Assembly: GCF_030064675.1 (NCBI RefSeq)
Contig: NZ_CP116413.1
Span: forward strand, 7,779,501 to 7,843,500
Source of the DNA: Crossiella sp. CA-258035
GTDB taxonomy: Bacteria; Actinomycetota; Actinomycetes; Mycobacteriales; Pseudonocardiaceae
Reading direction: 5' to 3'
DNA length: 64,000 nucleotides
The position numbers and the translations under genes are program-made. Positions 6,748 to 64,000 of the stretch are shown in pieces. Within the stretch, counting starts at the first letter, position 1. Each line of letters starts with the position of its first letter. Under the pieces are notes generated by a model. It saw only the letters and a program-made list of their open reading frames with translations, did no database searches and was not told where the DNA came from.

Positions 6748-7397
6748 TCCAGCACCACGTCCGCCTGCCCGACCAGCAGGTGCTTCGCCCCCGGCAGCGC
6801 CACCACCCTGGCCTGCGCCAGCGGCGCGAACCGGGCCCGTGCCTGCGCCGGTCGCAGGTGGTCGTCCAGCTCCGGCACCAGGCAGGTCACCGGCAGCCCG
6901 GAGGCCGTCCACCGGGCCAGCGCCGCCGGGGTGCTCCAGCGCAGCGGCGGCGCGACCAGCACCGCGCCCCGCACCGCCGGGTGCACGCCGTGCAGCAGGG
7001 CGAGGTCGGTGCCGAAGGACCAGCCGAACAGCCACACCTCGGGCAGGCCGCGGTCCTGGGTGAAGGCCAGCGCGGCGGCCAGGTCGTGCCCTTCGCCCGC
7101 GGCCGCCTCGAACTCGCCCTCGCTGCGCCCGGCCGCGCTGGCGGTGCCCCTGGTGTTGAACCGGAGCACCGCGAACCCGGCCAGCGCGGGCAGCCGCCAG
7201 GCGGCCTTGCGCAGCAGGTGGGAGTCCATCATGCCGCCGTGCGTGGGCAGCGGGTGCAGGCAGACCAGGGTGGCCCTCGGCGGCCGGTCCGCCGGCAGCG
7301 CCAGCTCGCCGACCAGGGTCAGGCCGTCCTCGGTGCGCAGCGACACGGGTTCGCGGACGGCCGGGAGCACGGTGTTCGGGCCGATCGGGGTGCTCAC
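6678..7397 (-). CDS. alpha/beta hydrolase, dienelactone-hydrolase/YqiA-like
   Basis: 239 residues. Motifs: LVCLHPLPTHGGMMDSH (oxyanion region), FGWSFGTDLALLHG (nucleophile Ser), and a late acid/His pair around LDDHLRPAQ and LPGAKHLLVG. This is the arrangement of short alpha/beta hydrolases annotated as CocE/DLH-like. The start codon GTG at 7395-7397 overlaps the stop of the upstream small gene as GTGA, indicating translational coupling. The first GTG in frame, at 7403, is also possible. Substrate unknown. Confidence 0.8.
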   Translation of the reverse strand: MSTPIGPNTVLPAVREPVSLRTEDGLTLVGELALPADRPPRATLVCLHPLPTHGGMMDSHLLRKAAWRLPALAGFAVLRFNTRGTASAAGRSEGEFEAAAGEGHDLAAALAFTQDRGLPEVWLFGWSFGTDLALLHGVHPAVRGAVLVAPPLRWSTPAALARWTASGLPVTCLVPELDDHLRPAQARARFAPLAQARVVALPGAKHLLVGQADVVLDQLVGVVAPEVPTPLPRQWAGSR

Positions 7398-7696
7398 GAC
7401 CACCGCCGGGTCGGGCCGCGCCGGGACCGGGCGCCCCAGCAGCCGCTGTGCCAGTGCCGCCGGTCCGAAGCCGAGCCCAGCTCGTCCGCGGGCCAGGCCA
7501 CCACGTGCGGCACGCCCGGCCGGATCTCGTGGTCGCAGCCGGGGCAGCGGTAGTTCTTGGTGGTCTGGGAACCGGGCACCGAGCGGACGATCCAGTCGCC
7601 GTCCGGGCCGGACTCGGTGCGGTTGTCCCCCAGGCCACCGCCCAGCGGCCGGTGGCCGCCACGATCGGGGCCCTGGGCGCGGTTACGGCGTGGCAC
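7394..7696 (-). CDS. conserved small actinobacterial zinc-finger-like protein
   Basis: 100 residues. The core YRCPGCDHEIRPGVPHVVAW, followed by a C-terminal RRHWHSGCW, gives a CxxC...H/C pattern suggesting a treble-clef-like metal site. Short actinobacterial proteins of this type are often labelled ATP/GTP-binding protein in databases, but no P-loop is visible here. GTG start; 4-bp overlap with the downstream hydrolase gene, so the two probably form one operon. Function unknown. Confidence 0.65.
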   Translation of the reverse strand: MPRRNRAQGPDRGGHRPLGGGLGDNRTESGPDGDWIVRSVPGSQTTKNYRCPGCDHEIRPGVPHVVAWPADELGSASDRRHWHSGCWGARSRRGPTRRWS

Positions 7697-7735
7697 GAGG
7701 AAAAACGGTAACCCGGGCGGGTTGGCGGGGCGCGA

Positions 7736-8284
7736 TCAGACCTCGGTGGCGATCCGCGGCCACAGCCCGCCGGGGTGCTCGGCCAGCGGCAGCCACAGGC
7801 TGGGCTGGCGTTCCCGGCAGGTGTCGCCTGCTTCCGGGTGCCATGGCCAGTGGCCGTGCCGGTCCGGCCAGACCACCTGGAGGAACGGCGGCGTCCGGTG
7901 CCGGTAGAAGCCGACCGCGATGCCGAAGAGGCCGTCGTGCCAGCTGTCATCGGCCGCGCGCAGCCGCACCGGGTGGCCTTCCAGCACGTCGGTCAGCTCC
8001 GCGCCGTCGGTCAGCCTGCCGCCGCCGGGCACCCGGTCGGCGAGTTCGTTCACCCAGGTCAGCATGTCCTGCCCGTGCAGGCCGAACATGGCCAGCTCCG
8101 GCTGCCGGTAGGAGTGCCAGAGGCCGTAGCTGAACGCCCAGCCGGGCTCCCGCGCGCCGTCCAGGATGCCCACCACGCCCCAGCCGTGCCTGCGCACGGT
8201 GCCGATCTCGCGCTCCCACTCCGCGCCGCCACGGGCATCCGGCGGCTCGCAGATCAGGCAGGCGCACTCCGTTGTGGTCGGCAC
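7736..8284 (-). CDS. DUF4262 family protein
   Basis: 182 residues. The N-terminal CACLICEPP, then REIGTVRRHGWGVVGI, WAFSYGLWHSYRQPELAMFGL and the late GFYRHRTPPFLQVVWPDRHGHWPW match the layout of DUF4262 proteins; no enzymatic role is established. The GTG at 8282-8284 is preferred over the ORF's first codon at 8323 because the CxxC element normally sits close to the N-terminus and the longer form would overlap the divergent FmdB gene. Confidence 0.7.
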   Translation of the reverse strand: MPTTTECACLICEPPDARGGAEWEREIGTVRRHGWGVVGILDGAREPGWAFSYGLWHSYRQPELAMFGLHGQDMLTWVNELADRVPGGGRLTDGAELTDVLEGHPVRLRAADDSWHDGLFGIAVGFYRHRTPPFLQVVWPDRHGHWPWHPEAGDTCRERQPSLWLPLAEHPGGLWPRIATEV

Positions 8285-8321
8285 AGCCGAACGGTAACCC
8301 CGGATGCCGCACAATGGCGGC

Positions 8322-8534
8322 ATGCCGCGTTATGAGTTCCGCTGCCGCGAGTGCGCTGGCACCTTCGAGCTGTCCCGTCCGATGAGCGCGTCCAGCGATC
8401 CGGCCACCTGCCCGGACGGCCACACCGACACGGTGAAACTGCTGACCACGCTCGGGATGACCGGTCGCGGTGGCGCCGCGCCCGCGCCCGCCGGTGGCGG
8501 CGGGGGCTGCTGCGGTGGCGGCTGCTGCGGCTGA
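8322..8534 (+). CDS. FmdB-type zinc-ribbon protein
   Basis: 70 residues. MPRYEFRCRECAGTFELSRPM followed by CPDGH is the FmdB/CxxC_CXXC regulatory zinc-ribbon signature. The tail is Gly-rich and ends with two CC pairs (GGCCGGGCCG), giving extra thiols. Proteins of this family are small and largely uncharacterised. The ATG at 8322 matches the family start; an ATG at 8304 would add six residues. It starts 37 bp from the divergent DUF4262 gene. Confidence 0.85.
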   Translation: MPRYEFRCRECAGTFELSRPMSASSDPATCPDGHTDTVKLLTTLGMTGRGGAAPAPAGGGGGCCGGGCCG

Positions 8535-8542
8535 TCCGCCCT

Positions 8543-8573
8543 TGACCTCCAGTTAGCTGGAGCAGTCAGCCTG
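8543..8573 (+). promoter_or_regulatory. MerR-type promoter/operator of the LLM gene
   Basis: A -35 element TTGACC (8543-8548) overlaps a dyad with arms CTCCAG (8547-8552) and CTGGAG (8557-8562). A -10-like CAGCCT follows 19 bp after the -35. A 19-bp spacer containing a dyad is the hallmark of MerR-family activated promoters. The LLM start codon at 8579 lies only 6 bp beyond the -10, so the transcript is predicted to be leaderless. Confidence 0.55.
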
Positions 8574-8578
8574 GCAGC

Positions 8579-9484
8579 ATGTCGTCCGCGAAGAAGCTCA
8601 CCCTCGGCGTGATCCTGCCGCCGATCCCCGCCACCGACCCGGCGCTGACCGTGCCCGCCGCCGCCCGCTTCGCCGAGGAGCTCGGCCTGGACGGGGTGTG
8701 GCAGGGCGACCACCTGGCCATCGGCAGGCCCAGCCTGGACCTCGGCGTCGGCCTGGCCGCGGCCGCCGCGGCGACCACCAGGGTGCGCATCGGGGCCAGC
8801 GTGTTCGTGCCCGCGATCCGGCCGCTGGCCTGGGCGGCGAAGCTGGCCGCCAGCCTGCAGGAGGTCTCCGGCGGCAGGCTGGTGCTGGGTATCGGCTCCG
8901 GCGGCGGCGAGGCCCAGTGGGCCGCGGCCGGGATCCCCTACGCCGAACGCGGCCCGCGCACCGACCACGCGCTGACCCTGCTGCCCAGGCTGCTCTCCGG
9001 CGAGACCGTGCTGCTGCCCGACGAGCCGGGCGAGCCCGAGCTGGACCTCGCCGTGCGGGTGCCGGTGCCGCCGTTCTGGGTCGGCAACGACTCCCCGCCC
9101 GCGCTGCGCCGGGCCGCCCGGCTGGGCCAGGGCTGGTTCCCCTCGCTGGTCTCCCCGGACCGGGTGCGCGCGGGCCGCGCCCAGCTGGCCGAGCTGGCCG
9201 GGGACCGCCCGCTGCCCACCATCGCGGTCGGCGCGGTCTCCGCCCTCGGCGACGAACCGGGCCTGGCCGACCGGCACGGCATCGCCGAGCAGATCAGCCG
9301 CGCCTACCAGCGGTCCGTGGCGGAGGTGCTGTCCGTGCCGCTGACCGGCACTCCGGCCCAGGCCGCCGAGCAGCTGGCCGCCTACCGGGAGGCCGGGGCC
9401 GAGCACATCGTGTGCGGGTTCGCCGGTGGTGCCTGGCGGCGGCAGGCCGAGCTGCTGGCCGAGGCGGGCAGGCTGCTGGACTGA
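8579..9484 (+). CDS. LLM-class (luciferase-like) F420-dependent oxidoreductase
   Basis: 301 residues of the bacterial-luciferase-like TIM barrel: LGVILPPIP at the N-terminus, DGVWQGDHLAIGRP, RVRIGASVFVPAIRPLAWAAKLAASL, then LVLGIGSGGGEAQWAAAGIPY and PFWVGNDSPPALRRAARLGQGWFPS. Actinobacterial members usually use F420 or FMN; the substrate is unknown. No Shine-Dalgarno precedes the ATG, consistent with the leaderless promoter just upstream. Stands alone between small genes. Confidence 0.85.
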   Translation: MSSAKKLTLGVILPPIPATDPALTVPAAARFAEELGLDGVWQGDHLAIGRPSLDLGVGLAAAAAATTRVRIGASVFVPAIRPLAWAAKLAASLQEVSGGRLVLGIGSGGGEAQWAAAGIPYAERGPRTDHALTLLPRLLSGETVLLPDEPGEPELDLAVRVPVPPFWVGNDSPPALRRAARLGQGWFPSLVSPDRVRAGRAQLAELAGDRPLPTIAVGAVSALGDEPGLADRHGIAEQISRAYQRSVAEVLSVPLTGTPAQAAEQLAAYREAGAEHIVCGFAGGAWRRQAELLAEAGRLLD

Positions 9485-9585
9485 CCTGACCGGGTGGCGC
9501 CACGCACCCGAACCGGCGACCGGGGCTGTCCCGGGCCGCCGCGACCGGCTAACCAGGGAGACAACCCGGCCAGTCGGAGGAAACC

Positions 9586-9828
9586 ATGCGCAAGCCAGTG
9601 GCAACGGTCATCATCGCGGCGGCCCTGGGCGCGGCCCTGGCCGGTCCGGCGGCCGCCGCGCCCGCCGACGCCGAGGAGTGCGTGGCCTACGCCGTGGCCG
9701 AGGAGGATGCGGGCTACCTGCTCGCGGACCTGGCATGCTCCGCAGCCACGCTGATGCAGTGCTACCGGCTCTTCCGCGCGGAGTACGGGCCGCAGCTGTG
9801 GGCGCTGACGGCCTGCTCGATGCGCTGA
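9586..9828 (+). CDS. small secreted four-cysteine protein
   Basis: 80 residues. Strong Shine-Dalgarno (GGAGGAAACC) just before the ATG. Residues 1-25 form a Sec signal peptide (positive start, Ala/Val/Ile-rich core, AAAAPA cleavage region). The mature part of about 55 residues has four Cys (EEC, LAC, MQC, TAC), enough for two disulfides. No family recognised. The stop is followed at once by three copies of an 18-bp tandem repeat. Confidence 0.75.
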   Translation: MRKPVATVIIAAALGAALAGPAAAAPADAEECVAYAVAEEDAGYLLADLACSAATLMQCYRLFRAEYGPQLWALTACSMR

Positions 9829-9882
9829 GGCTGGCCCCCACGCCCTGGCTGGCCCCTACGCCCTGGCTCGCCCGCGCGCCCT
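9829..9882 (+). repeat. 18-bp tandem repeat, three copies
   Basis: Three consecutive 18-bp units (GGCTGGCCCCCACGCCCT, then copies with 1 and several changes) directly after the stop codon of the small secreted protein. A decayed fourth unit follows to about 9900. In one forward frame the units would read as a hexapeptide repeat APTPWL, but that frame has no start of its own. Confidence 0.7.
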
Positions 9883-9928
9883 GGCTCCGCCGGCTGGCCC
9901 TTGCGCTCCCCCCGCCCGGCTCCTAGCG

Positions 9929-9944
9929 TTGCAAACGCTTACAT
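9929..9944. promoter_or_regulatory. LacI-family-type operator upstream of the GH28 gene
   Basis: TTGCAAACGCTTACAT matches 13 of 16 positions of the sugar-regulon LacI-family consensus TTGCAAGCGCTTGCAA. It lies 88 bp before the GH28 start codon, as expected for repression of a polysaccharide-degrading enzyme in the absence of its inducer. Confidence 0.55.
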
Positions 9945-10031
9945 TCTGTGCCGACTGAAAACCGCCGCCTCTTCGCAGCAGTCCCCGCTCCGCCACGCGG
10001 GCCAGTGGAACCGCATCGAGGAGACCCGCTC

Positions 10032-11528
10032 ATGAACCGAACCTGGCGCTCCCGCCTGCTCGTCCTGGGCACCGCGGCCGCCACCACGCTGGCCGTGGCC
10101 ACCCCAGTGCTGGCCGCACCCGGCGCCACCTTCAACATCCGCGACTACGGCGCCAAGGGCGACGGCAAGGCCATCGACTCGCCCGCCATCGACAAGGCGA
10201 TCAGCGCGGCCAGCGCCGCGGGCGGTGGTGTGGTCGAGGTGCCCGCCGGGACCTACCTGTCCCGGTCCATCCACCTCAAGAGCGACATCACCGTCAACCT
10301 GGCCGCCGGGTCGAAGATCATCGCCGCCGGCAGCGGCATGGACAAGCCGGAGCCCAACGAGTTCGACGACTACCAGGACTTCGGGCACAGCCACTTCCGC
10401 AACGCCCTGATCTGGGGCGAGCACGTGTCCAACGTCCACTTCACCGGCGCCGGCACGATCGACGGCGACAACAAGCTGGAGACCAGCAACACCCCGGCTT
10501 CCGGCGTCGCGGACAAGGCGATCTCGCTGAAGTTCTGCCAGAACGTCACCTTCACCGGCATCACCATGCGCCAGGGCGGGCACTTCGCGGTGCTGGCCAA
10601 CGGCTGCGACGGGATGAGGTTCAGCCGGGTCAAGATCCTCACCTCCGAGGACCGGGACGGGATCAACATCATCAACAGCTCGAACGTGGAGGTCGCCGAC
10701 TCCCTGGTGGAGGCCAGCGACGACGCGGTGGTGTTCAAGAGCGACTACGCGCTGGGCCGGACCTTTGTCAGCCGGCACAACGTGGTGCGCGACTCCACCA
10801 TCAAGTCCACCGAGAACAACGCACTCCAGTTCGGCTCGGAGACCTGCGGCGACTTCCGCGACCACCGGTTCAGCAACCTCAAGATCACCGGCGCGGGCAA
10901 GGCGGGGCTGGGCATCGTGTCCATGGACGGCTCGGTGATCGAGGACGTCCACTACGACAACATCACCCTGACCCGGACCACCGCGCCGATCTTCCTGCAC
11001 GTGGGCAAGCGCTCGCGCTGTCCAGGCAAGCCACCGGCGGGCAAGATCCGCAACATCACCTTCACCGGCATCTCCGGCACCAACCTGACCTCGCCGACCA
11101 CCGTGCCCGGCGGCCCCGAGCACACCAGCACCATCACCGGCCGCACCGACTCGGCGATCGAGAACGTCAGCTTCACCAACGTCAGGCTGACCGTGCCCGG
11201 CAACCACCCCGCCTCGGACGCGAACCGGGTGCCGCCGGAGAACAGCACCGAGTACCCGCCGCGGATCTTCGGCGTGCGGCCCTCCTTCGGCTTCTGGATC
11301 CGGCACGCCAAGGACATCAGCTTCACCGGCAGCACGTTCGAGTTCGACAAGAACGACGGACGGCCCGCGTTCCTGGCCAACGACACCAGCGGCGTGGTGA
11401 TCAACGGCGTCCGGGTGGAGCGCAGCACCGGGCTCTACGACGTGACCTTCCAGAAGAGCAGCGGCCAGTCGGTGACCGGCAGCTCCACCACCTCGGGCGC
11501 GGAACTGCGCACCCGCACGCAGAACTAG
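10032..11528 (+). CDS. secreted glycoside hydrolase family 28-like (polygalacturonase-type) enzyme
   Basis: 498 residues; ATG preceded by GAGGAG. Signal peptide about residues 1-28 (VATPVLA/AP). The mature protein starts FNIRDYGAKGDGKAIDSPAI, the entry motif of right-handed beta-helix GH28/pectate-lyase-3 proteins. Repeated beta-helix coils follow (NVTFTGITMRQ, NITFTGISG, NVSFTNVRL). The catalytic strip is recognisable as DRDGINI and SDDAVVFK. The usual GHG is replaced by FGSE and no clear RIK is seen, so it may be an exo-acting or divergent member rather than a classical endopolygalacturonase. Likely substrate class: pectin or related plant polysaccharide. The last 4 bp overlap the convergent next gene. 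Confidence 0.85.
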   Translation: MNRTWRSRLLVLGTAAATTLAVATPVLAAPGATFNIRDYGAKGDGKAIDSPAIDKAISAASAAGGGVVEVPAGTYLSRSIHLKSDITVNLAAGSKIIAAGSGMDKPEPNEFDDYQDFGHSHFRNALIWGEHVSNVHFTGAGTIDGDNKLETSNTPASGVADKAISLKFCQNVTFTGITMRQGGHFAVLANGCDGMRFSRVKILTSEDRDGINIINSSNVEVADSLVEASDDAVVFKSDYALGRTFVSRHNVVRDSTIKSTENNALQFGSETCGDFRDHRFSNLKITGAGKAGLGIVSMDGSVIEDVHYDNITLTRTTAPIFLHVGKRSRCPGKPPAGKIRNITFTGISGTNLTSPTTVPGGPEHTSTITGRTDSAIENVSFTNVRLTVPGNHPASDANRVPPENSTEYPPRIFGVRPSFGFWIRHAKDISFTGSTFEFDKNDGRPAFLANDTSGVVINGVRVERSTGLYDVTFQKSSGQSVTGSSTTSGAELRTRTQN

Positions 11529-12526
11529 TCGGCGCCGGTCGCGGCCAGCACGGCCACCGCGCCGTCCGGCCGCACCGCGAGCAGGCCCAGCGAGCCCGGC
11601 TCGCGGTAGAACCACGGGCCGTCCACCACGAACTGCCACCACCGGCAGCGCGCCTCGCCCGGCCGCGCGACATCGGCGAGCCGGGCGAGCGCCTGTCTGG
11701 TGTGCAGCCGGGCGTAGGCGCCGCTGCCCTCCTGGGCGGTGGTGGCGAACACCGCGGCGAAGGCCCCGGCCAGGGCCAGCTCGCGCACCCGCACGCTCTC
11801 CGCCCCGGCCAGGCACTCCAGCGGCAGGCTGGTCAGCAGGTCCGGCTGCCAGGGCGCGCTCAACCGGAACAGCCCGCTCTCCACCCGGCCACCGGCCCCG
11901 GCCAGGCGATGGCTGGTGCCGGGGGCGACCTCGTCCAGCGCCCAGGGCAGCCGCTCGACCGTCGCGGTCGGCTCCGCGCCACCCTGGTCCGGCCACAACG
12001 GCAGCGTCCGGTAGGGCTCGGTGACGGCGCGGACGTGCTCGAACTCGGCCAGCCGCAGCGGCAGCTCACCCAGCGGGTGCGTGCCGTGCAGCGCCTCGGC
12101 GTAGGCGACGGCCTCCGGCACCGCGGACAGGTCGCCGTGCCGCAGCACCGTCTCCTGCAGCAGACAGGCCAGCACCTCGTCCTTCGGCCCGGCGTCGGCG
12201 AAGAAGGCGTCCAGGTTCTCCAGCGGCTGCCCGGCGGCCAGCAGCGCGGCGGCCCTGCGCTTGTCCGGCACCGGGATCCGCTCGTCCCCGGCCAGCTGCA
12301 GGGCGGCCACCACGCTGAACGCGCCCGGCCGGGCGGCCAGCGCGGTGATCACGCCCCAGCGCACCGCCGCCGCGGCGGCGGAGTCCGCCTCCAGCAGCGC
12401 TTCGCCGAGGTGTAGCAGCTCGTCGATGCGCCCGGCGTCCGCCCAGCCCTGGACGAGGGTCAACTCCTCGTCGCAGGACTCGGCGGTGCGCAGCCTGCTG
12501 ACCATCTCGTCGATCGTGGCCTCCAC
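11525..12526 (-). CDS. conserved hypothetical protein (possibly DUF6183-like)
   Basis: 333 residues, predominantly helical, Leu/Ala-rich, with no signal peptide or membrane segment. The N-terminal half (ELTLVQGWADAGRIDELLHLGEALLEADSAAAAAVR) looks like HEAT/TPR-type helical repeats. The C-terminal end (RCRWWQFVVDGPWFYREPG, LLAVRPDGAVAVLAATGAD) is compact and resembles DUF6183 proteins as far as memory allows; this is tentative. Convergent with the GH28 gene (4-bp overlap). Function unknown. Confidence 0.6.
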   Translation of the reverse strand: MEATIDEMVSRLRTAESCDEELTLVQGWADAGRIDELLHLGEALLEADSAAAAAVRWGVITALAARPGAFSVVAALQLAGDERIPVPDKRRAAALLAAGQPLENLDAFFADAGPKDEVLACLLQETVLRHGDLSAVPEAVAYAEALHGTHPLGELPLRLAEFEHVRAVTEPYRTLPLWPDQGGAEPTATVERLPWALDEVAPGTSHRLAGAGGRVESGLFRLSAPWQPDLLTSLPLECLAGAESVRVRELALAGAFAAVFATTAQEGSGAYARLHTRQALARLADVARPGEARCRWWQFVVDGPWFYREPGSLGLLAVRPDGAVAVLAATGAD

Positions 12527-12550
12527 GATCCCTGAGGCTACCGAGCCCGC

Positions 12551-14323
12551 TCAGGCGGTGTAGTCGCGGAATCCCTTGCCGGTCTTGCGACCCAGTCGAC
12601 CTGCGGTAACCAGGTGTTCCAGCAGCGGCGCCGGCGCGAACCCGGCCTCGCGGAACTCCAGGTACAGCTCGCGCTGGATGGCCAGGGCCACGTCCAGGCC
12701 GACCACGTCCAGCAGTGCGAACGGGCCCATCGGCAGGCCACAGCCGACCTTCATCGCGTTGTCGATGTCATCGGCGGAGGCGTAGTGCGCCTCCAGCATC
12801 TTCACCGCGTCGTTGAGGTAGGGGAACAGCAGCGCGTTGACGATGAAACCGGCGCGGTCGCCGCAGGTCACCGGGTGCTTGCCGAGCTTGCGGCAGACCG
12901 CCTGCGCGGTGGCCACCACCTCGGGCGCGGTGGAGATGGTGTGCACCACCTCGACCAGCTTCATCACCGGCGCGGGGTTGAAGAAGTGCAGGCCGACCAC
13001 GTCGGCGGGGCGGCTGGTGACCGCGGCCAGCTCGATCACCGGCAGCGAGGAGGTGGTGGTGGCCAGCACCGCGCCCGGCTTGCACACCTCGTCCAGGGTG
13101 GCGAAGACGGCCTTCTTCACCGAGAGCTCCTCGGCGACGGCCTCGACCACCAGGTCGGCGTCGGCCAGGTCGCCGAGGTCGGTGGTCACCTGCACCCGGC
13201 CCAGCGCGGCGTCCCGGTCCTGTTCGGACAGCTTGCCGCGCAGCACGGCCTTCTCCAGCGAGCGGCGCAGCGCGTCCAGCGCGGACTTGGCCTTGCCCTC
13301 GCTGCGGGCCCGCACGACCACGTCGTGCCCGGCCTTGGCGAAGACCTCCACGATGCCGGTGGCCATGGTCCCGGTGCCGACCACGCCGACCCGCTGCACC
13401 TCGCGGACCTGCTCGTGCTCGCCACCCTCGGCGCTGACCGCGTCCACCACGGTGGGCGAGTCGGGCGCGTCGTAGGTGTAGAAGCCGCGCCCGGTCTTCC
13501 GGCCGAGCAGCCCCGCGGTGATCATCTGCTTGAGCAGCGGCGCGGGCGCGTGCAGCCGGTTGCGGGACTGGTGGTACATCGTGTCGAGGATCTCGTAGGC
13601 GGTGTCCAGCCCGATCAGGTCGAGCAGCGCCAGCGGGCCCATCGGGTAGCCGCAGCCCAGCTTCATGGCCGCGTCCAGGTCCTCGCGGGTGGCGTAGCGG
13701 CCCTCGAACATGCGCACGGCGTGGTTGAGGTAGCCGAACAGCAGCGCGTTGGCGATGAAGCCGGCCCGGTCGCCGATGACCACCGGCACCTTGCCCAGGC
13801 GCTCGGCCAGCGCGGTCACGTCGTCGACCACGTCCGGCTCGGTGACCACGGTGCGCACCACCTCGACCAGCTTGAGCACCGGCGCCGGGTTGAAGAAGTG
13901 CATCCCGACCACCTTGCCCGGCCGGGAGGTGTGCACGGACAGCTCGGTGACCGACAGCGAGGAGGTGTTGGAGGCCAGGATGGTCTCCGGCGGGCAGATC
14001 CGGTCCAGCTCGGCGAAGACCTGCGCCTTGAGCTCCATCCGCTCCGGCACCGCCTCGATCACCAGGTCCGCCTCGGCCAGCGCCTGCAGCGAGGTGGTGA
14101 ACTCGATCTGCGCGAACAGCGCGTCCTTGCCGGCCTCGTCCAGCTTGCCCCGGCGCAGCGCCCGGTCGGTGGAGTGCTCCACGTGGCCACGGCCGCGGGC
14201 CAGCGCGTCCTCGGTCACCTCAACCGCGATGACCTTGAGCCCGGTGCGCGCGAACACCTCCGCGATACCAGCGCCCATGGTGCCCAGACCGACGACTCCC
14301 ACGGTGGTGAAATCACGCGTCAC
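12551..14323 (-). CDS. two-module 3-hydroxybutyryl-CoA/3-hydroxyacyl-CoA dehydrogenase
   Basis: 590 residues containing two complete 3HCDH units in tandem. Module 1 (about 1-285) starts VGVVGLGTMGAGIAEVFA; module 2 (about 300-590) starts VGVVGTGTMATGIVEVFAKAG. Both keep the NAD-binding GxGxxxxG motif, the SNTSS or TTTSS region, and the catalytic segment GMHFFNPAPVLKLVEVV / GLHFFNPAPVMKLVEVV, followed by the C-terminal NALLF...GCG.PMGPLALLD domain. Reaction: reversible oxidation of 3-hydroxybutyryl-CoA, feeding crotonyl-CoA to Ccr. Tandem forms of this length are known in actinomycetes. The GTG at 14323 has a GGGAGG site 8 nt upstream; the frame continues open to 14431 but without homology. 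Confidence 0.92.
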   Translation of the reverse strand: MTRDFTTVGVVGLGTMGAGIAEVFARTGLKVIAVEVTEDALARGRGHVEHSTDRALRRGKLDEAGKDALFAQIEFTTSLQALAEADLVIEAVPERMELKAQVFAELDRICPPETILASNTSSLSVTELSVHTSRPGKVVGMHFFNPAPVLKLVEVVRTVVTEPDVVDDVTALAERLGKVPVVIGDRAGFIANALLFGYLNHAVRMFEGRYATREDLDAAMKLGCGYPMGPLALLDLIGLDTAYEILDTMYHQSRNRLHAPAPLLKQMITAGLLGRKTGRGFYTYDAPDSPTVVDAVSAEGGEHEQVREVQRVGVVGTGTMATGIVEVFAKAGHDVVVRARSEGKAKSALDALRRSLEKAVLRGKLSEQDRDAALGRVQVTTDLGDLADADLVVEAVAEELSVKKAVFATLDEVCKPGAVLATTTSSLPVIELAAVTSRPADVVGLHFFNPAPVMKLVEVVHTISTAPEVVATAQAVCRKLGKHPVTCGDRAGFIVNALLFPYLNDAVKMLEAHYASADDIDNAMKVGCGLPMGPFALLDVVGLDVALAIQRELYLEFREAGFAPAPLLEHLVTAGRLGRKTGKGFRDYTA

Positions 14324-14441
14324 GACTCTGCCTCCCACGACTTCGGGGGACCCGCTGACGGGTGCTACGGGCCAGTAACTTGTGGTGATAGTGCCACGCT
14401 GCGTGTTGTTTTCCCCGGTGAGGTTCGCCACGGGGGTAAGC

Positions 14442-15359
14442 CTAGAGAGCGGGCAGCCTGGGCCAGACCTCGGTGGCCACCTCGCGAGCGAGGGGACAGT
14501 TCTCCTCCGCAGGCAGGGCGCTGTACACCGCGACCCGCGCGTTCTCCAGGTAGTCCTGGCCGAACCGGATGTGCCTGGTGTCCACCCGGCAGGAGGGCAG
14601 CAGGCCGCCGCCCGCGGGCTGGGCGCGGACCAGCGAGTCCCGTCCGCCGATGCGCTCCTCGGCCGCGGGTGTGGCCGGGTCGGGGTCCACCACGCTGAAG
14701 GTGACCAGCAGCGAGGGCGAGTCGGGGCGGCGGCCGCCCCACTGGCAGACGTGCCGGTTGCCGTCGCCGTTGGGCTGCGGGGTGTCGATGCCGGGGACCT
14801 TGGCGGCCAGTCCGGCAGGCACCAGCGGGCAGGGGTCCACGCCGGCCAGGGAGTTGGGCGGGTAGGCGCGGGTGCGGGCGCCGCCGGCGCGCAGCACCGT
14901 GCGCACCGACTCGGCCGCGGCCTCGGCTACCTCGCAGAGCTGGGCGTCCGCGCCGCTGACGTCCACCGTGACGTAGCGCAGGTCGGGCAGCAGCACCACC
15001 GAGCCGCAGGAGTCGGCCACCGCCCTGGCCCGGCCCACCCGCACCCCGTCCCGCTCCACCAGCTCGAAGCCGAGCTGGTCGGCCGCGTTCGCCGCGGCGA
15101 GGCGGCCGCCGGAGGCCAGCGTCACGGTCAGCTCGTCGACCCCGTTGCGCAGCGCGAAGCGGCAGTCGTCGAAGTTGAGCTCAGGTCCGGGCACCTGGGT
15201 GCCGAAGCGGCTGAGCGCGTCCGGCGCGACCAAGCTGCACGGGTCGAGGCGAGGCCAGTCCGGCGCGGGGGTGGTCGCGCCAGGACCGGCCGCCGGCGTG
15301 CCGCAGCCGGCCAGCACGGTCGCCAGGACCGCGCAGGTCAGAACGCCGCGGGCACCCAT
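14442..15359 (-). CDS. DUF3558-like lipoprotein, two modules
   Basis: 305 residues with a lipoprotein signal (lipobox LAGC, Cys about 19). Two related modules follow, each opening with DPC: LDPCSLVAPDALSRFG...FDDCRF and VDPCPLVPAGLAAKVPG...HVCQWG. This is the pattern of DUF3558 lipoproteins abundant in Pseudonocardiales and mycobacteria; their role is unknown. Expected on the outer face of the membrane. The 118-bp spacer to the dehydrogenase start shows nothing notable. Confidence 0.75.
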   Translation of the reverse strand: MGARGVLTCAVLATVLAGCGTPAAGPGATTPAPDWPRLDPCSLVAPDALSRFGTQVPGPELNFDDCRFALRNGVDELTVTLASGGRLAAANAADQLGFELVERDGVRVGRARAVADSCGSVVLLPDLRYVTVDVSGADAQLCEVAEAAAESVRTVLRAGGARTRAYPPNSLAGVDPCPLVPAGLAAKVPGIDTPQPNGDGNRHVCQWGGRRPDSPSLLVTFSVVDPDPATPAAEERIGGRDSLVRAQPAGGGLLPSCRVDTRHIRFGQDYLENARVAVYSALPAEENCPLAREVATEVWPRLPAL

Positions 15360-56676: not shown

Positions 56677-57939
56677 TCAGCCGTCCCAGCGCTTGGCGAC
56701 CAGCACCGCGTTGTGCCCGCCGAAGCCGAAGGAGTTGCTCATCGCGTACCGCACCTCGTGCTCCTGCGGCGCGTTGGCCACGAAGTTCATCTCCGCGTCC
56801 AACGGCTGGTGCAGGTTCATCGTGGGCGGCACGATCCCGGTGCGCATGGCGAACCCGCAGGCGATCAGCTCGACCGCGCCGGCCGCGCCGATCATGTGCC
56901 CGGTCATCGACTTGGTGGAGCTGACCGGGATCTTGGTGGCGTGCTCGCCGAGGACCTGCCGGATGGCGAAGGTCTCGGTCTTGTCGTTGAGCTCGGTGCT
57001 GGTGCCGTGCGCGTTGATGTAGTCGATCTGCTCCGGCGTGATGCCCGCGTCGGCCAGCGCCCTGCTCATCGCGCGCACGGCGCCCGCCGCCTCCGGGTGC
57101 GGGGCGGTCCAGTGGTGCGCGTCGGAGGTCGCCGCGTAGCCGGCCACCTCGGCCAGGATCGGCGCGCCCCGGCGCAACGCGTGGTCCAGCGACTCCAGCA
57201 CGACCACCCCGGCGCCGGCGGCCATGATGAAGCCGTCCCGCTCGGCGTCGAAGGGCCTGCTGGCCCGCTCCGGGTCGTCGTTGCGCCGGGACAGCGCTCT
57301 GGCGTTGGAGCTGGAGGCGATGTCCAGCGGGGTGACGCTCATCTCGGTGCCACCGGCGATGACCACGTCGGCCTCGCCGTACTGGATCCACCTGGTCGCG
57401 GTGCCGATGGCGTCGGTGCCGGTGGCGCAGGCCGCACTGATCGCCAGCGTCGGGCCTGCCGCGCCGAACATCAGGCTGACCTCACCGGTGGGCGAGTCGT
57501 GCGCGCCGGTGATCGCCTGGTAGGCGCCGACCGCGCGGCCGCCCTTCTCCTGCAACAGCTTCACCGAGTCCTGCATGTACTTCATCGCGCCGTAGCCGGT
57601 GCCCAGCAGCACGCCGGTGCGCGGCGCGAGCTCGCTGTCGATGGTCAGCTTGGCCGACTCCACCGCCTGGATCGAGGCGGCCACCCCGTACTGGGCGAAC
57701 AGGTCCATCCGCCTGCTGAGCTTGCGCGGCATGTGGTCCTCGGCGACGAAACCCTTGACCTCACCGGCGATCTGGGTCGGGAAGGGTTCGGCGTCGAAGG
57801 TGGTGATCCGGGCGATCCCGCTGCGCCCGGCCATGAACGCGGCCCAGGTGTCCTCCGCGGTCAGGCCGACCGGGCTGATGGCTCCCCAGCCGGTGACGAC
57901 GACCCTGGGCCGCCGCTTCCTGAACTCCTCTACCGACAT
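56677..57939 (-). CDS. 3-oxoacyl-ACP synthase II (FabF/KAS II-like)
   Basis: 420 residues. Catalytic triad intact: Cys171 (ISAACATGTDAIG), His311 (INAHGTSTELND), His348 (GHMIGAAGAVE), with Lys343 in STKSMTGH. Decarboxylative condensation of an acyl primer with malonyl-ACP. No acyl carrier protein, fabD or fabG is adjacent, so it is not part of the main fatty-acid operon. It lies 30 bp downstream of the ligase/ALDH fusion in the same direction, so the pair probably works on one acyl substrate. ATG start. Confidence 0.9.
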   Translation of the reverse strand: MSVEEFRKRRPRVVVTGWGAISPVGLTAEDTWAAFMAGRSGIARITTFDAEPFPTQIAGEVKGFVAEDHMPRKLSRRMDLFAQYGVAASIQAVESAKLTIDSELAPRTGVLLGTGYGAMKYMQDSVKLLQEKGGRAVGAYQAITGAHDSPTGEVSLMFGAAGPTLAISAACATGTDAIGTATRWIQYGEADVVIAGGTEMSVTPLDIASSSNARALSRRNDDPERASRPFDAERDGFIMAAGAGVVVLESLDHALRRGAPILAEVAGYAATSDAHHWTAPHPEAAGAVRAMSRALADAGITPEQIDYINAHGTSTELNDKTETFAIRQVLGEHATKIPVSSTKSMTGHMIGAAGAVELIACGFAMRTGIVPPTMNLHQPLDAEMNFVANAPQEHEVRYAMSNSFGFGGHNAVLVAKRWDG

Positions 57940-57969: not shown

Positions 57970-60600
57970 TCAGGCGTTGGCCATCCGGTTCTTGCGGGCT
58001 GCCGGCAGGTGCTCGGCGACGGCCTTGGAGATCAGCAGCGGCTCGGCCACCCGCTGCCCCTGGTACGCCACGTAGTTCGCGGCCACGCCGTACCCGCCGA
58101 ACGGCTTGTTGCCGTCGTCGGTGTCCAGCACGGTCAGGTTCACCGACACGATGTGCCGCTTGCCCAGTGCCGCGACCACGTCGGGCGCGTCGCCGTAGAC
58201 CATCGCCCCCATCGCCCGCTCGTTGACCGTGGGGTGGTTGGCGAAGGCGCGCAGCTGCTGGGTGTTCTGGTAGATGACCACGTTGAAGATCGGGGCGAAG
58301 GTCTCCTCGATCGGCATCTTCTTGTTGTAGGGCCGCACCAGCACCGCGGGCTCCAGGTGCCGGGACCGGAAGTCCAGCCGCCCGCCGGCCACGATGTGCT
58401 CACGGTTGAGCCGCAGGTAGTCCGCGGCCGCCTCGATCGCGGTCTCGTAGTACAGCGGGCCGTAGTCCGCGCCGGGGTCGGTGTAGCTGCCGTAGCGCAG
58501 CTCGGAGACCCGTTTGGTGAGCTGGTCCACGAAGGCGTCCGCCTCGTTGGCGTGCACCAGGAACACGTCGGGGGCGAAGCAGTCCTGGCCGGAGTTGAGC
58601 ATCCGGATGCGCACCGCGTCGGTGACCGCGAGGTCGATGTCCGCGCCCTCGGTCACGATGAACGGGTTCACGCCCTGGCCGAAGAACAGCAGCATCTGGT
58701 CATCGCGCAGCTCGGCGCGGACCAGCTCGGCGTTCTGGTACGCGCCGGTGAACACCAGCACATCGGCCTCGGCCACCGGCACCTCGACGAACTGCCGCTG
58801 GCTCAACGTGGTCAGCTCGATGTTGTCCAGCTTGTGCACCGGCGCGAGCAGCTCGTGCAGCCGCTTGGTGGTGCCGGTGACCTGGCTGGACGGCCGGAAG
58901 ATGATCTCGTCGGTGTACAGCGACGGGATCAGCGTGTAGAGCACGTAGGAGTAGAACAACACGTTGGAGGACATGAAGACCGCCATCTTCGGCACCCGGC
59001 CGGGGCGGTAGGCCGAGACCTCCGAGAGCGCGCCCTCCAGCGCGCTCAGCCCGGCCTCGACCTCGTCGAGCACGGCCTTGTGGTTGGAGATCTCGGTCAG
59101 CACGTCGATCAGCGGCTGCGGGTCGTTGCGGATGAACTCGGCCACCGCGCGCAGGGCGGCCAGCCGCTGCGGGTGCGGCACCGCGGCCAGGTCGGTGAGC
59201 CGGGTCAGGTCGGGCTTTCCGTTGTTGTTCAACGGGAACTCGGTCACCACCAGCACCTGGTTGGGCTGCTCGTAGGAGGGCAGCAGCGCGCAGATCTTCT
59301 CCCGCCAGTAGCGGGCCTCGCGCAGTTCCGGGTCGGCCACCACGAACACCAGCTGGCTGCCCCGGCGCTCGTCGTCCAGCGCGACCACCTTGACCGGCGC
59401 TCCGGCCTCCTCGGCCTTGCGGGCCAGGGCTTCCGGGTAGAGCGTGTGACCCATCCGGTGCACCGCGTACTTGCGCCCCACCACGTAGAGGTTGCCCTCG
59501 GCGTCGGTGTAGCCGATGTCGTTGGTGCGGTAGACGTCCTCGGTGTGCTCGGTGACCGAGCCGTCCGCGGCCAGGTAGCCGGTGAGCTGGCCAGGCGAGC
59601 TGACCAGGATCTCGCCGATCTCGCCCGGCGGGACCGCGTTGCCGTCCTCGTCCAGGATCCGCACCACGACCCCGTCCAGCGGCTGGCCGCAGCCGACCGC
59701 GTTGCCGGGGGCGGCCAGCGCGATGTTGCCGACCTCGGTGCTGCCGTAGCCGTCCAGCAGGGGCTGGCCGGTGGCCGCGATGAACTTCTCCGCCAGCGCG
59801 CGGTCCAGCGGCGCGCCGCCCACGCACCACATCCGCACGTCCCGCAGGCTCGCCGCGGACTCCGGCCTGCGCTCCACCAGCTTCAGCATGGTGTGGTAGG
59901 TCGCGGGGGTCGCGTCCACCACGGTCGCCCGGTAGCGCCCGGCCATGTCGACCGCGTGGTCCAGGCGGGCGTACGGCGCCACGATCAGCGAGCAGCGGGC
60001 CACCCACCACAGCAGCACGAGCGAGAGCCCGTACTGGTGCGAGAAGGGCAGCAGCGGCATCAACACGTCGGCCTCGGTGTAGCTCATCCGCTGCTGGGTG
60101 CGCTCGATGTTGCCCAGGAAGGAACGGCCCGAGCGGACGATGCCCTTGGGCTCGCCGGTGGTGCCCGAGGACCAGGCGATCAGCGCGTCCGGCCGGGTGA
60201 ACCAGTCCACAAAGGACAGTGAGCCGCCGAGGGCGGGGATCGACTGCGCCTCGTCCAGCAACCCGTCCAGGCTGATCACGTGGTCGGGGTCGAGCACCGT
60301 CAGGTCCTGGCTGACCTCGGGGCGCACCAGCGCCCAGCCCGCCCTGGCGAAGGCGGTGATCCGCGCGGTCTCCTCCGGCGTCTGCCGGTGGTCCACCAGC
60401 ACGATCGAGGTGTCCAGGTGCACCAGGGCCAGGAGCACGGTGACGTACCCGGCCGAGTTGTCCGCCTTGAGCATCACCCGGCTGCCTGGACACAGCCCAC
60501 GTGCGCGCAGCGCCGCGGCCACCCGCAGCGCGTCCTGCTCGACCTCTGCCGCGGATCGCACGGAGTTCGCTGTCACCAACCTGGCTGCCACAGGTTCCAC
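57970..60600 (-). CDS. acyl-adenylating ligase fused to an aldehyde dehydrogenase
   Basis: 876 residues. Residues 1-480 are an ANL-superfamily ligase: A3 LIAWSSGTTGEPKGIVR (about 140-157), GYGSTEVGN, YRTNDIGY, and the A10 Lys in LNNNGKPDLTRL (about 462). Residues 535-870 are an ALDH-superfamily domain with nucleophile Cys about 674 (NSGQDCFAPD), EETFAPIFNV and a GGYG C-terminal loop. No carrier-protein domain. It could activate an acid and reduce it to an aldehyde (or thioester), or run the other way. The GTG at 60600 has GGGAG upstream and a 29-bp palindrome 40 bp further. Followed by the FabF-like gene. Confidence 0.85.
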   Translation of the reverse strand: MEPVAARLVTANSVRSAAEVEQDALRVAAALRARGLCPGSRVMLKADNSAGYVTVLLALVHLDTSIVLVDHRQTPEETARITAFARAGWALVRPEVSQDLTVLDPDHVISLDGLLDEAQSIPALGGSLSFVDWFTRPDALIAWSSGTTGEPKGIVRSGRSFLGNIERTQQRMSYTEADVLMPLLPFSHQYGLSLVLLWWVARCSLIVAPYARLDHAVDMAGRYRATVVDATPATYHTMLKLVERRPESAASLRDVRMWCVGGAPLDRALAEKFIAATGQPLLDGYGSTEVGNIALAAPGNAVGCGQPLDGVVVRILDEDGNAVPPGEIGEILVSSPGQLTGYLAADGSVTEHTEDVYRTNDIGYTDAEGNLYVVGRKYAVHRMGHTLYPEALARKAEEAGAPVKVVALDDERRGSQLVFVVADPELREARYWREKICALLPSYEQPNQVLVVTEFPLNNNGKPDLTRLTDLAAVPHPQRLAALRAVAEFIRNDPQPLIDVLTEISNHKAVLDEVEAGLSALEGALSEVSAYRPGRVPKMAVFMSSNVLFYSYVLYTLIPSLYTDEIIFRPSSQVTGTTKRLHELLAPVHKLDNIELTTLSQRQFVEVPVAEADVLVFTGAYQNAELVRAELRDDQMLLFFGQGVNPFIVTEGADIDLAVTDAVRIRMLNSGQDCFAPDVFLVHANEADAFVDQLTKRVSELRYGSYTDPGADYGPLYYETAIEAAADYLRLNREHIVAGGRLDFRSRHLEPAVLVRPYNKKMPIEETFAPIFNVVIYQNTQQLRAFANHPTVNERAMGAMVYGDAPDVVAALGKRHIVSVNLTVLDTDDGNKPFGGYGVAANYVAYQGQRVAEPLLISKAVAEHLPAARKNRMANA

Positions 60601-60639
60601 CGCTGGTCTCCCACCCCTCGCCCGGTTACCCCGGCGTGA

Positions 60640-60668
60640 CCGTGTCCGTACCCGGAGTACGGACACGG
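60640..60668. promoter_or_regulatory. long palindrome upstream of the ligase/ALDH operon
   Basis: Perfect 12-bp arms CCGTGTCCGTAC (60640-60651) and GTACGGACACGG (60657-60668) around CCGGA, centred about 54 bp before the ligase start codon. Size and position suggest a dimeric-repressor operator (TetR-like) or a leader hairpin. No regulator gene lies next to it in the window. Confidence 0.65.
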
Positions 60669-61654
60669 GCGATTGCCTACCGGAGTTTCAATGCGTTACT
60701 TTTGATCACGTTGTGTGTCGGCCCGCTGACTGTGGGTTCCCACCCGGGTCAGCAGTCCCAGTGCCTCGTGACCCGCCACCGGTCACGGTTCCGAGCCGCG
60801 AATTCCAGCATTGGTCGGAACACCCACTCAAATTACCGGGGCACCGTCGTGTTTCGACAATGAGAACTTTCTGACGTTCTTCCGGCTAGATAAAACTTCC
60901 TGAAGCAAGTACCGGCGTGAGGGCTTCGCGACCGTCCGCACTCGATCGCCGCCTGAGGTACCGCTCGATGGAGGCAGTCCACCACCCGCGTCTGCGGAGA
61001 ACCACCATACCCGCCCTGATCTGCCCCGATCACCGGACGTCCGGCCCGTTGGGCTGCCCGGACAGGCAGACCGGGACCAGCGGGGCAGGCTCGTCCTACC
61101 TAGTCCGGTTCACGCCAGGACTAAGCCGTACAGCCCAGTGAGCACCCGGCCGAACGGACCAGTCAACCCGTTTCCCGTGTCCCGGAGAGCGCGCAATGCG
61201 GCCCGCTGACACACACCACGTCAACTCCGGGCAAACCTTTCCCTCACCCTTGCGACCGACACGAACTCTATTATTGAACAGGCGACCGAATTCCCCGCTT
61301 TTCCGGGAAAAGACGTCAAGTCTGTGCAAAGTGTGTCGGCTAATAGCCCACCGCCGGGCGGCAGAACCGTGAACCCGCGACCGGCCCCGCGCGGCCCCCT
61401 CGCCCCAGGCCCCCGGCGGCGGGCACCGGGCTGATCAGGGGGCTCCGACCTGCGCGGAAGGGCGGCCACCCCGGGCCGGACGACCGGCGGCCCTGGCACT
61501 GCACGGACGGCGCTGGAAGTCCAGCGGCGGCGCCGCTGTGGATCAGCGAAGTGAGAGTCGGGCGGGTCGCGCGGGCCGGGCCCGCAAGCCGGTCGAAGCG
61601 GACGCCCCGGGGTGCGAGATGTCGATGCGGGCGCGGATCGGCCCTGGGCATGGG
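60669..61654. other. gene-free spacer of about 1 kb
   Basis: No supported gene on either strand; the open frames lack ribosome sites and domain patterns. The middle part is less GC-rich than the surroundings (for example around 60690-60900 and 61255-61350), as promoters usually are. A tight dyad CTTTTCC/GGAAAAG lies at 61298-61312. It separates the lanthipeptide operon terminator from the ligase operon promoter. Confidence 0.55.
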
Positions 61655-61693
61655 TCGGGGGATGCTCCCGGTCGCGGCGAGAGCATCCCCCGA
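61655..61693 (-). terminator. terminator of the lanthipeptide operon
   Basis: Perfect 13-bp arms TCGGGGGATGCTC (61655-61667) and GAGCATCCCCCGA (61681-61693) with a 13-nt loop, 24 bp past the precursor gene stop on the minus strand. A smaller dyad, GCACACA/TGTGTGC (61696-61710), lies in between. Confidence 0.8.
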
Positions 61694-61716
61694 TGGCACA
61701 CACTGTGTGCGGTGGA

Positions 61717-61821
61717 TCACCAGCAGATCAGCAGACTCAGCGTGCTGATCAGGCCCATGCCGAGCTCGGCAGGGCTGTCGACCTCGGCAGGTTCGATGGC
61801 CTGCAGGTCAAGAACGTCCAT
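61717..61821 (-). CDS. lanA: class III lanthipeptide precursor peptide
   Basis: 34 residues, too short for usual gene calling. Leader MDVLDLQAIEPAEVDSPAEL carries the LDLQ box recognised by class III synthetases (compare LLDLQ in RamS-type peptides). The core ends ISTLSLLICW: Ser26-x2-Ser29-x3-Cys33 is an exact labionin/lanthionine motif, followed by a terminal Trp. Only one ring can form. ATG 8 bp after the LanKC stop; the Shine-Dalgarno GGGGAGG overlaps that stop, so translation is coupled. Confidence 0.88.
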   Translation of the reverse strand: MDVLDLQAIEPAEVDSPAELGMGLISTLSLLICW

Positions 61822-61829
61822 CCGGGTTG

Positions 61830-64000
61830 TCACCTCCCCTCGCGCACTCGTCCGAACAGGGGCAACGCCCCGGTGGCCACGGTGTGCAGCGCGAGCAGCA
61901 CACCCGCCGATCCGGTGGCGAGATCGTGGGACAGCCGCAGCAGCGCGTCGCCGGGGAAGGCCAGGCCGCCGCCGTGCGGCACCGCGTGCCAGGCCAGCCT
62001 GCTGACGTGCCGGTGCAGCGCGGCGTCCAGCTGGCCTGCGTCGACCTCGGGCAGGCCGCGCAGCGCGGCGAGCGCGCAGACCAGCCCGGCCCGGCCGGTG
62101 AACAGCCCGCTGTGCACGGTGAACTCGGCTTCCAGCGCCCTGCGCACCGAGGGCAGCGCGCCGAGGAACACCGGGTCCGGCCGCCGCCGCAGCAGCTCGG
62201 CCATGGCGATGGCGATCCCCGCGGTGCCCGCGGCCAGGTAGGGCAGCAGCTTGCGGCCCGCGCGCACGTGCAGCGCGCCGGCGGCGGTCAGCTCGGCGTG
62301 CTGGAGGTCCCGGTGCAGTGCGGTGCCCGCCGCGTCCAGCAGCCGGTCCGGGCCACCCTCGGCGTGCGCGTGGCTGAGGAACAGCGCCGCGCCCGCGCCG
62401 CCGCGGCTGAGCCCGGGCAGTCCGAACGGGACCGCCTCCACCCCGGCGAGCACCCGGCCCGCCACCCGGTCGGCGAGGTCGAGACCCCATTCGGTGAGCC
62501 AGCTCCGGCCGACCGTGCGCCCCAGGTGCAGCAGGGTCAGCCCGATGCCGGAGAGACCCTCGTACAGGTCGGCGCCCGCGCAGGCCTCGGTGCTCGCGGC
62601 GGCCCGCTCGATGAGCTCCAGCGCGGTCCCGGTGTGCCCGAACTCGGCCAGCACCAGCGCGATGCCGTGCCGTCCGGCGAACAGGCCGGGCCGGCCCGCG
62701 CCGCGCCGGATCAGCGCGCGCAGCAGCCAGTCCTCGAACTCGGGGAAGCGCCCGCAACCGCTGGTGTGCAAGGCGTGCAGCACCCCAGCCGCGCCGTGCG
62801 CCAGGCCGAGCCCGTCCTCGGCGAATTGGGCGATGTCGCCGGGGAAGAGCCGGTCGCTGCGCTGCGGGGTGGCCGAGGCCAGGATCGCCGCGGTGATCTG
62901 CTCGCGCAGCCGGTCCAGGTCGGCCGGTCCGGTCGGGAACATCGGCGGCACCGCCTCCGCGTCCGCCACCGGCGGCGGCACCGAGCCCGCGCAGAGCCGG
63001 TCGAGGATGGGCCGCACGTACTCCGGCGGCACCGGGAACCGGGCCAGCACCGCCGCGCACAGCGAGCGGACCTTGCCGGGCGCCAAGGCGCACAACGAGT
63101 TCAGCGGCAGGAACAGCGCGAGCCGGAGCGCGGCCAGCGCGTAGTGGTCCACGTCGAAGCCGCCGACGCCGGGCGGCGCGGTGTAGCCGGGCGCGCCCAG
63201 CGGCGGCCGGGTCGCCGCGCCCACCGGTGCGGCCAGCTCGAAGTCCAGCAGGGTGACCCGGCCGTCCGGGCCGACCATCACGTTGTTCGGGTGCAGGTCG
63301 CCGAAGACCACGCCGCGCTCGTGCAGCGCGGCCATCGCGGCGGTGACCTTCTCCACGACCTCCAGCGCCCACCGGGTGTACCCGGCCACCTCGGCCTCGT
63401 CCGCGGCCGCCCCGGCCAGCGGGTAGCGGCGGACCAGCTCGGTGGCCAGCGGCACGCCCTCGACGTGGCTGAGCGCGAGGAACTCGTGCTCCCAGCAGCG
63501 GAACCGGCCCAGCACCTCGGGCACGCCGGGCGCGCCGGCCAGCAGGGTGAGCATGTCGTGCTCGTTGGCCAGCCGGTGCACCGCGTCGTGGCCGTCGGTG
63601 TCCAGCCCGGCGTGCGGACGGGCCTCCTTGAGCACCACGGTGCGCCCGGTCTCGGGCTCCTCGGCCAGGTAGACCCCGCCCGCGTTGGAGAAGTGCAGCG
63701 GGCGCAGCACCCGGTAGGGCAGCGCGGCCCTGGCCCGGCGGCGGGCCAGGTGCGGTCGCAGCACCTCCGGGATGGCCACCCAGTCCGGCGGGCTGAACCG
63801 GGGGCCGCGCTCATCCGGCACCAGGTTGCCCTCGGGGTCGGCCAGCGCCGGCACCAGCTCGCCGCGCGCGGACTGGCAGTACCGCTCGGTGAAGGCGCCG
63901 TAGCGCACGTAGAGCGGGCCCTCGCCGAAGCGCAGGTCGTTGAGGATGTACGGGCCGGGCCGCCCGGCCAGCCGGGGGCCGAGCCTGCGCAGCTGGCGGG
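61830..64000 (-). CDS. lanKC: class III lanthipeptide synthetase LanKC, 5'-truncated
   Basis: About 723 residues visible; the frame is open past the window end, where PGPYILNDLRFGEGPLYVRYGAF belongs to the N-terminal lyase domain. The kinase domain spans about 63720-63050: VVLKEARPH (Lys near 63628), catalytic VFGDLHPNN (Asp near 63298) and LLDFELA (metal Asp near 63244). A LanC-like domain (about 62850-61850) has repeated (S/A)GxAG turns such as HGAAGVLHALH and GTAGIAIAMAEL but none of the Cys/Cys/His zinc ligands, which distinguishes class III from class IV. It phosphorylates, eliminates and cyclises the adjacent precursor. Confidence 0.92.
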   Translation of the reverse strand, partial: RQLRRLGPRLAGRPGPYILNDLRFGEGPLYVRYGAFTERYCQSARGELVPALADPEGNLVPDERGPRFSPPDWVAIPEVLRPHLARRRARAALPYRVLRPLHFSNAGGVYLAEEPETGRTVVLKEARPHAGLDTDGHDAVHRLANEHDMLTLLAGAPGVPEVLGRFRCWEHEFLALSHVEGVPLATELVRRYPLAGAAADEAEVAGYTRWALEVVEKVTAAMAALHERGVVFGDLHPNNVMVGPDGRVTLLDFELAAPVGAATRPPLGAPGYTAPPGVGGFDVDHYALAALRLALFLPLNSLCALAPGKVRSLCAAVLARFPVPPEYVRPILDRLCAGSVPPPVADAEAVPPMFPTGPADLDRLREQITAAILASATPQRSDRLFPGDIAQFAEDGLGLAHGAAGVLHALHTSGCGRFPEFEDWLLRALIRRGAGRPGLFAGRHGIALVLAEFGHTGTALELIERAAASTEACAGADLYEGLSGIGLTLLHLGRTVGRSWLTEWGLDLADRVAGRVLAGVEAVPFGLPGLSRGGAGAALFLSHAHAEGGPDRLLDAAGTALHRDLQHAELTAAGALHVRAGRKLLPYLAAGTAGIAIAMAELLRRRPDPVFLGALPSVRRALEAEFTVHSGLFTGRAGLVCALAALRGLPEVDAGQLDAALHRHVSRLAWHAVPHGGGLAFPGDALLRLSHDLATGSAGVLLALHTVATGALPLFGRVREGR

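Follow-up and report, generated by a model that had tools for sequence, protein, structure and literature searches.

The window, the whole 64,000-nucleotide stretch that was analysed (G000:C1:7779501-7843500, from the 9.17 Mb single-contig genome of a Crossiella strain), contains a locus that probably encodes a one-ring class III lanthipeptide of the SapB/AmfS type, likely a surface-acting morphogen or signal. We found the locus at the same place in all five Crossiella genomes examined, always in the order rho, HK, RR, LanKC, LanA, a spacer of about 1 kb, ligase/ALDH, and KS. The genes, their domains, the conservation of the core, a hairpin, and the synteny could be established from the sequence, and the locus is real, conserved, and apparently uncharacterised, although one-ring peptides of such kind already recur elsewhere.

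Precursor and synthetase

The precursor gene lanA (61717..61821, minus strand) starts with an ATG behind the ribosome-binding site GGAGGTGA and encodes a product of 34 amino acids, MDVLDLQAIEPAEVDSPAELGMGLISTLSLLICW, with the leader box VLDLQ and the core ISTLSLLICW. It thus carries the LxLQ leader box and the S-x2-S-x(2-5)-C core of class III precursors, the core motif being taken as defined in an excerpt of PMC11251773, and it passes both the Pfam model RamS (29.1 bits, cut-off 24.3) and the NCBIfam model SapB_AmfS_lanti (29.3 bits, cut-off 25). The class III lanthionine synthetase gene lanKC (lyase-kinase-cyclase, 61830..64388, minus strand, 852 aa), which extends past the window end at 64000, finishes 8 bp from lanA. 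Its product reached 990.8 bits against the NCBIfam model lanthi_synth_III (cut-off 575), compared with 399.1 bits against the class IV model, below the cut-off of 650. The RamC_N, kinase, and LanC-like domains of class III synthetases are all present, solved class III synthetases align to the protein, and its kinase has DFE, as class III enzymes are reported to have (PMC10604976, in the part consulted). The window LanKC shares 74-98% identity with its orthologues in the other four Crossiella genomes. The first-pass annotation of this DNA had proposed a class III operon, which is borne out by the scores above cut-off for RamS, SapB_AmfS_lanti, and lanthi_synth_III alike.

That annotation had also described a 34-residue precursor with a leader box, a single exact S-x2-S-x3-C motif, and Trp after the Cys, and we found these features kept in all five Crossiella genomes, with the C-terminal Trp directly past the Cys in each. 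ISTLSLLICW itself is identical throughout. Within the last ten lanA codons, three have synonymous changes and none has a replacement, whereas the leader linker and the two residues preceding the core vary among the five genomes, the linker of G016 being two residues longer. Because the codon changes in the core are only silent while the linker varies, the observation goes beyond chance, and the core is, on this pattern of codon changes, under purifying selection in all five genomes. As for the true substrate, a second precursor was considered, but no second leader-box open reading frame with a Cys was found in the locus of any of the five. Downstream of the lanA stop lies a hairpin with a 16 bp stem (61655..61693, minus strand), which has no T-run and is the likely transcript end; it is kept in all five genomes, and none of 200 shuffles was as stable (z -4.35, 83 nt folded).

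Among 84,980 species, each represented by one genome, the exact core followed by a stop was found at four places; records of the window itself or close to it may be missing from this collection. Two of the four are Crossiella, and the other two were rejected as chance matches without any leader. Among the species scanned, the exact core was therefore found only in Crossiella. The core letters had no match in the literature searched, and characterised homologues with an identical core, which would have told against novelty, did not come to light there. This search returned no paper joining Crossiella and SapB and none on the present locus. An antiSMASH class III cluster in Crossiella, 50.2% similar to a Streptomyces curacoi synthetase, is mentioned in the part of PMC9415966 consulted and could be any Crossiella locus. 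The predicted [M+H]+ is 1225.70 for LISTLSLLICW minus two H2O and 1282.72 for GLISTLSLLICW, the leader cuts being hypothetical in both cases.

Occurrence of one-ring precursors

LanKC was found in at least 134 of the 249 genomes searched, and 115 loci were fetched, giving 101 distinct LanKCs. This census is a chosen sample, mostly best-scoring loci plus those reached through a ligase/ALDH search, which adds lipolanthine-type loci, and in its motif either position may be Ser or Thr, with a gap of 2-5 residues to the Cys. By precursor, 29 LanKCs have one ring, 53 have two, 10 have three, 4 have no motif, and 5 have no recognised precursor. The one-ring group comprises the five Crossiella island LanKCs, 11 of lipolanthine type, and 13 others, ten of the latter in a single genus (g3); several carry an extra linker Cys. 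A single Cys in one S-x2-S-x3-C occurs outside Crossiella at five loci (L049, L018, L059, L191, and L199). One-ring precursors thus recur in the sampled family, so that one ring alone is no sign of novelty. Andalusicin, a characterised class III peptide, is reported with one labionin (PMC10604976), a pneumococcal Sx2Sx3C family is known (PMC7268733), and 179 predicted single-Cys lanthipeptides, which share the single-cysteine topology of Crossiella LanA, are catalogued in PMC11251773, each of these sources having been consulted in part. The excerpt of PMC11251773 names lipolanthines as the only characterised single-Cys lanthipeptides, which is at odds with this reading of andalusicin. The first-pass expectation of a compact and unusual product is weakened by the 29 one-ring LanKCs and the andalusicin precedent, although the exact core is confined to Crossiella in our scan.

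In the LanKC tree, which was built by a quick method with a midpoint root and has 17 open forks, the Crossiella island clade has a support of 100 and a stem of 0.83 changes per column. It lies inside a group (SH-aLRT 99) of one-, two-, and three-ring loci that also holds a few loci lacking the motif or the precursor, and the lipolanthine-type LanKCs form a separate clade (support 100). The long stem suggests that the function of the island LanKC may have shifted.

Some loci differ further from these patterns. L057 and L203 are LanKC loci with one-Cys precursors that lack S-x2-S-x(2-5)-C, for example one ending in ...NPSNVLSTALHSTLCLG. Three further Crossiella LanKCs, L243-L245 (in G016 and G108), are left out of the census: the precursor of L244 is Cys-rich (MVILDLQSLEPDDVQQGCGASNFSIGCSFSVLCTGKGM), that of L245 is odd, and none was recognised for L243.

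Comparison with characterised systems and proposed pathway

SapB and AmfS have two rings each, and in their family an ABC transporter pair lies 3' of the precursor gene. The Crossiella locus resembles this RamS family in its LxLQ leader box, S-x2-S-x3-C motif, LanKC, and precursor model score above cut-off, but it differs in having one ring motif in all five genomes, a Trp end, no ABC pair past the precursor, and a two-component pair upstream. A scan for signature motifs, by which genes can be missed, gave no ABC transporter signature near LanKC in any of the five Crossiella loci, which agrees with the transporter-free locus described at first pass. Upstream of base 64000, where it had been advised to look, LanKC continues to 64388 and is followed by the two-component pair and rho, again with no ABC signature. 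Among 22 non-lipolanthine LanKC loci of other genera, 14 have two ABC open reading frames past the precursor, one has a single one (L050), and seven have none adjoining. Those without ABC genes next to LanA include the one-ring loci L210 and L211, the context loci of two of the five non-Crossiella single-Cys loci. When the window's genome was searched with the two ABC proteins of L054, each gave 83 matches, the best-scoring being just 29% and 33% identical, and unclustered orthologues of the pair were rejected on this ground.

The absence of a second ring and of the transporter pair, set against the 53 two-ring LanKCs in the census and the ABC pairs at 14 of 22 loci, might be taken to mean that a two-ring SapB locus is decaying in Crossiella. 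We regard this as highly improbable, since in all five genomes LanKC is open, the core changes are only silent, and the signals are conserved.

Instead, we favour a functional one-ring SapB/AmfS-type locus, for which the ring chemistry, export, regulation, and function of the peptide may be pictured as follows. LanKC would bind the VLDLQ leader box of LanA, phosphorylate and eliminate both Ser residues of S-TL-S-LLI-C, and close a single thioether ring of either the lanthionine or the labionin kind; the resulting hydrophobic peptide would end in Trp. The leader would be trimmed by proteases encoded outside the locus, and a non-clustered exporter would release the mature peptide. M1-type peptidases can trim class III leaders, and seven M1 peptidase matches lie in the genome outside the locus. 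At the cell surface, the product would act as a surfactant-like morphogen or signal, which by analogy is its most likely role. Durhapeptin, according to an excerpt of PMC13380574, connects aerial hyphae with a hydrophobic class III core, and neither the strain that makes it nor distant species were affected by it. Andalusicin (ThurA1/ThurKC) is reported with a single C-terminal labionin and leader proteases outside its cluster (PMC10604976, in part), to which the predicted Crossiella ring may be likened, but it differs in its eleven dehydrations, seven precursors, methyltransferase, and Bacillus host. The Crossiella peptide would be a relative of SapB outside Streptomyces, and its natural core, very short and with a single ring motif, may be a small test case in which to study the choice between lanthionine and labionin by class III synthetases.

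Transcription signals

Tandem palindromes, GCGACTAAAGTTGC and GCGACTTTCGTGGC, stand between RR and lanKC with a spacing of 30 bp. The first is exact in all five Crossiella genomes and the second in four, with one change in G016. The palindrome pattern, which was derived from these very sites after seeing them, matches the genome exactly at 16 places, compared with 58 for a reversed control, and the lanKC sites are the only close pair among the 16. The adjacent HK/RR pair probably controls the lanKC-lanA transcript through these palindromes, to which the RR would bind. Near the ligase gene there is no exact match to the palindrome; with one mismatch allowed, the window is not enriched (4 found, 12.2 expected), and L009 as a whole has 4 where 3.5 are expected. 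No RNA family reached the gathering score in 60000-64000.

A conserved non-coding element (60816..60907, minus strand) lies upstream of the ligase/ALDH gene and is a probable promoter or operator. It is strongly conserved in all five genomes inside the 1 kb spacer, which is mostly poorly conserved, and contains AGAAC-N8-GTTCT. A regulatory element common to both units was considered and rejected, since the ligase upstream element has just one copy in the genome.

The rho-rpmE insertion and its lipid-type genes

The lanKC-lanA unit shares one insertion with an AMP-binding ligase fused to an aldehyde-dehydrogenase-fold domain (57970..60600, minus strand; the longest open reading frame starts at 60666, and the start is provisional) and a FabF-type beta-ketoacyl-ACP synthase (56677..57939, minus strand). 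The insertion is flanked by rpmE (L31; 55775..55969, minus strand) and by rho, outside the window. From rho to rpmE, the distance is about 10.8 kb in the window's genome and 134-1418 bp at 16 of 18 rho loci of other genera (19 genomes searched), rpmE falling outside the fetched flank at the other two. Because the rho-rpmE interval is short in other genera, the island, ligase/ALDH and KS included, was most likely inserted there in the lineage of Crossiella, and since one insertion holds both units, a shared origin is plausible.

This raises the question of whether a fatty aldehyde or an acyl chain made by the lipid-type enzymes is attached to the lanthipeptide or released together with it. Such a hybrid agrees with the single insertion, with the presence of all six genes in the stretch from rho to the prfA region in all five genomes, and with the 11 lipolanthine-type LanKC loci, of which all carry ligase and ALDH and eight carry KS; seven of these 11 were fetched through the ligase/ALDH search, so that just the four Crossiella ones are free of this bias. 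In one alignment, the ALDH has retained the catalytic Cys but not the Glu of LELGG, as is also the case in acylating ALDH types. However, between lanA and the ligase gene lie the hairpin and the mostly poorly conserved spacer of about 1 kb, the ligase gene has an upstream element to itself, and no GNAT was found in the insertion by tblastn with the L010 GNAT as query (matches above 80 bits), a search that a remote GNAT could escape. In addition, the ligase/ALDH has its closest relative in a paralogue at 1.334 Mb (76-77% identical), where the 19 kb read contain no LanKC, and the modules found elsewhere are in many cases without LanKC in the stretch read; between the window fusion and the versions at lipolanthine loci, identity is about one half. 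We thus consider the hybrid unlikely, and quite unlikely the narrower idea that the island is one system under its own two-component control that yields a GNAT-free lipid-lanthipeptide conjugate, for example with an aldehyde joined to a peptide amine.

We lean slightly towards a lanthipeptide operon and an unrelated small-lipid operon that became accidental neighbours at one site, which is compatible with the SapB/AmfS-type reading. The separate transcription signals and the modules without LanKC elsewhere support this, the two modules checked carrying a TPP enzyme; the association is, on the other hand, stable in five of five genomes and inside one insertion. The paralogue locus L099 (G000:C1:1326000-1345000) has, at 8312-12753, an AMP-ligase/ALDH fusion and a TPP enzyme, and L092 has, at 8640-14534, such a fusion, a TPP enzyme, and a KS. 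Given these TPP enzymes, other pathways can also make use of the module, and these two modules perhaps make acyloin-like lipids.

Lipolanthines and the second class III locus

A flavoprotein Cys decarboxylase is expected near lipolanthine genes, and the genome has three PF02441 matches, none near the island. Lipolanthines (microvionin, nocavionin, goadvionin, and nocaviogua) resemble the window locus in having one ring per precursor and a class III synthetase (PMC10435860, in part). They differ in ending in avionin, formed at a C-terminal Cys, and in carrying a long acyl chain, whereas the Crossiella peptide has Trp after the Cys in all five genomes and neither GNAT nor decarboxylase was found near its genes. 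On these grounds, the window locus was rejected as a lipolanthine, and the distinction already drawn at first pass stands.

The same genome has a second LanKC locus at 1.28 Mb, L010 (G000:C1:1272000-1290000), with LanKC at 7175-9811 and three precursors of 27 aa each at 6721-6804, 6864-6947, and 7088-7171. These have S-x2-S-x2-C ends (GSTVSNSC, GSTVSNGC, and ASPISMGC), and the neighbours are a GNAT, an R2-like diiron protein (oxidase), ligase/ALDH, KS, and an acyltransferase; no PF02441 decarboxylase was found nearby. Because its core resembles that of nocaviogua, given as Ala-Avi-Val-Ser-Avi-Asp/Asn-Gly-Avi in the excerpt of PMC10435860, L010 looks lipolanthine-type. A locus of this type occurs in four of the five Crossiella genomes, and related loci occur in three other genera; the fifth, G016, has two other LanKCs without such a precursor in the flank read. 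A second rho-like gene with 63% identity was found at G000:C1:5543284-5544387 and is also present in several other family members.
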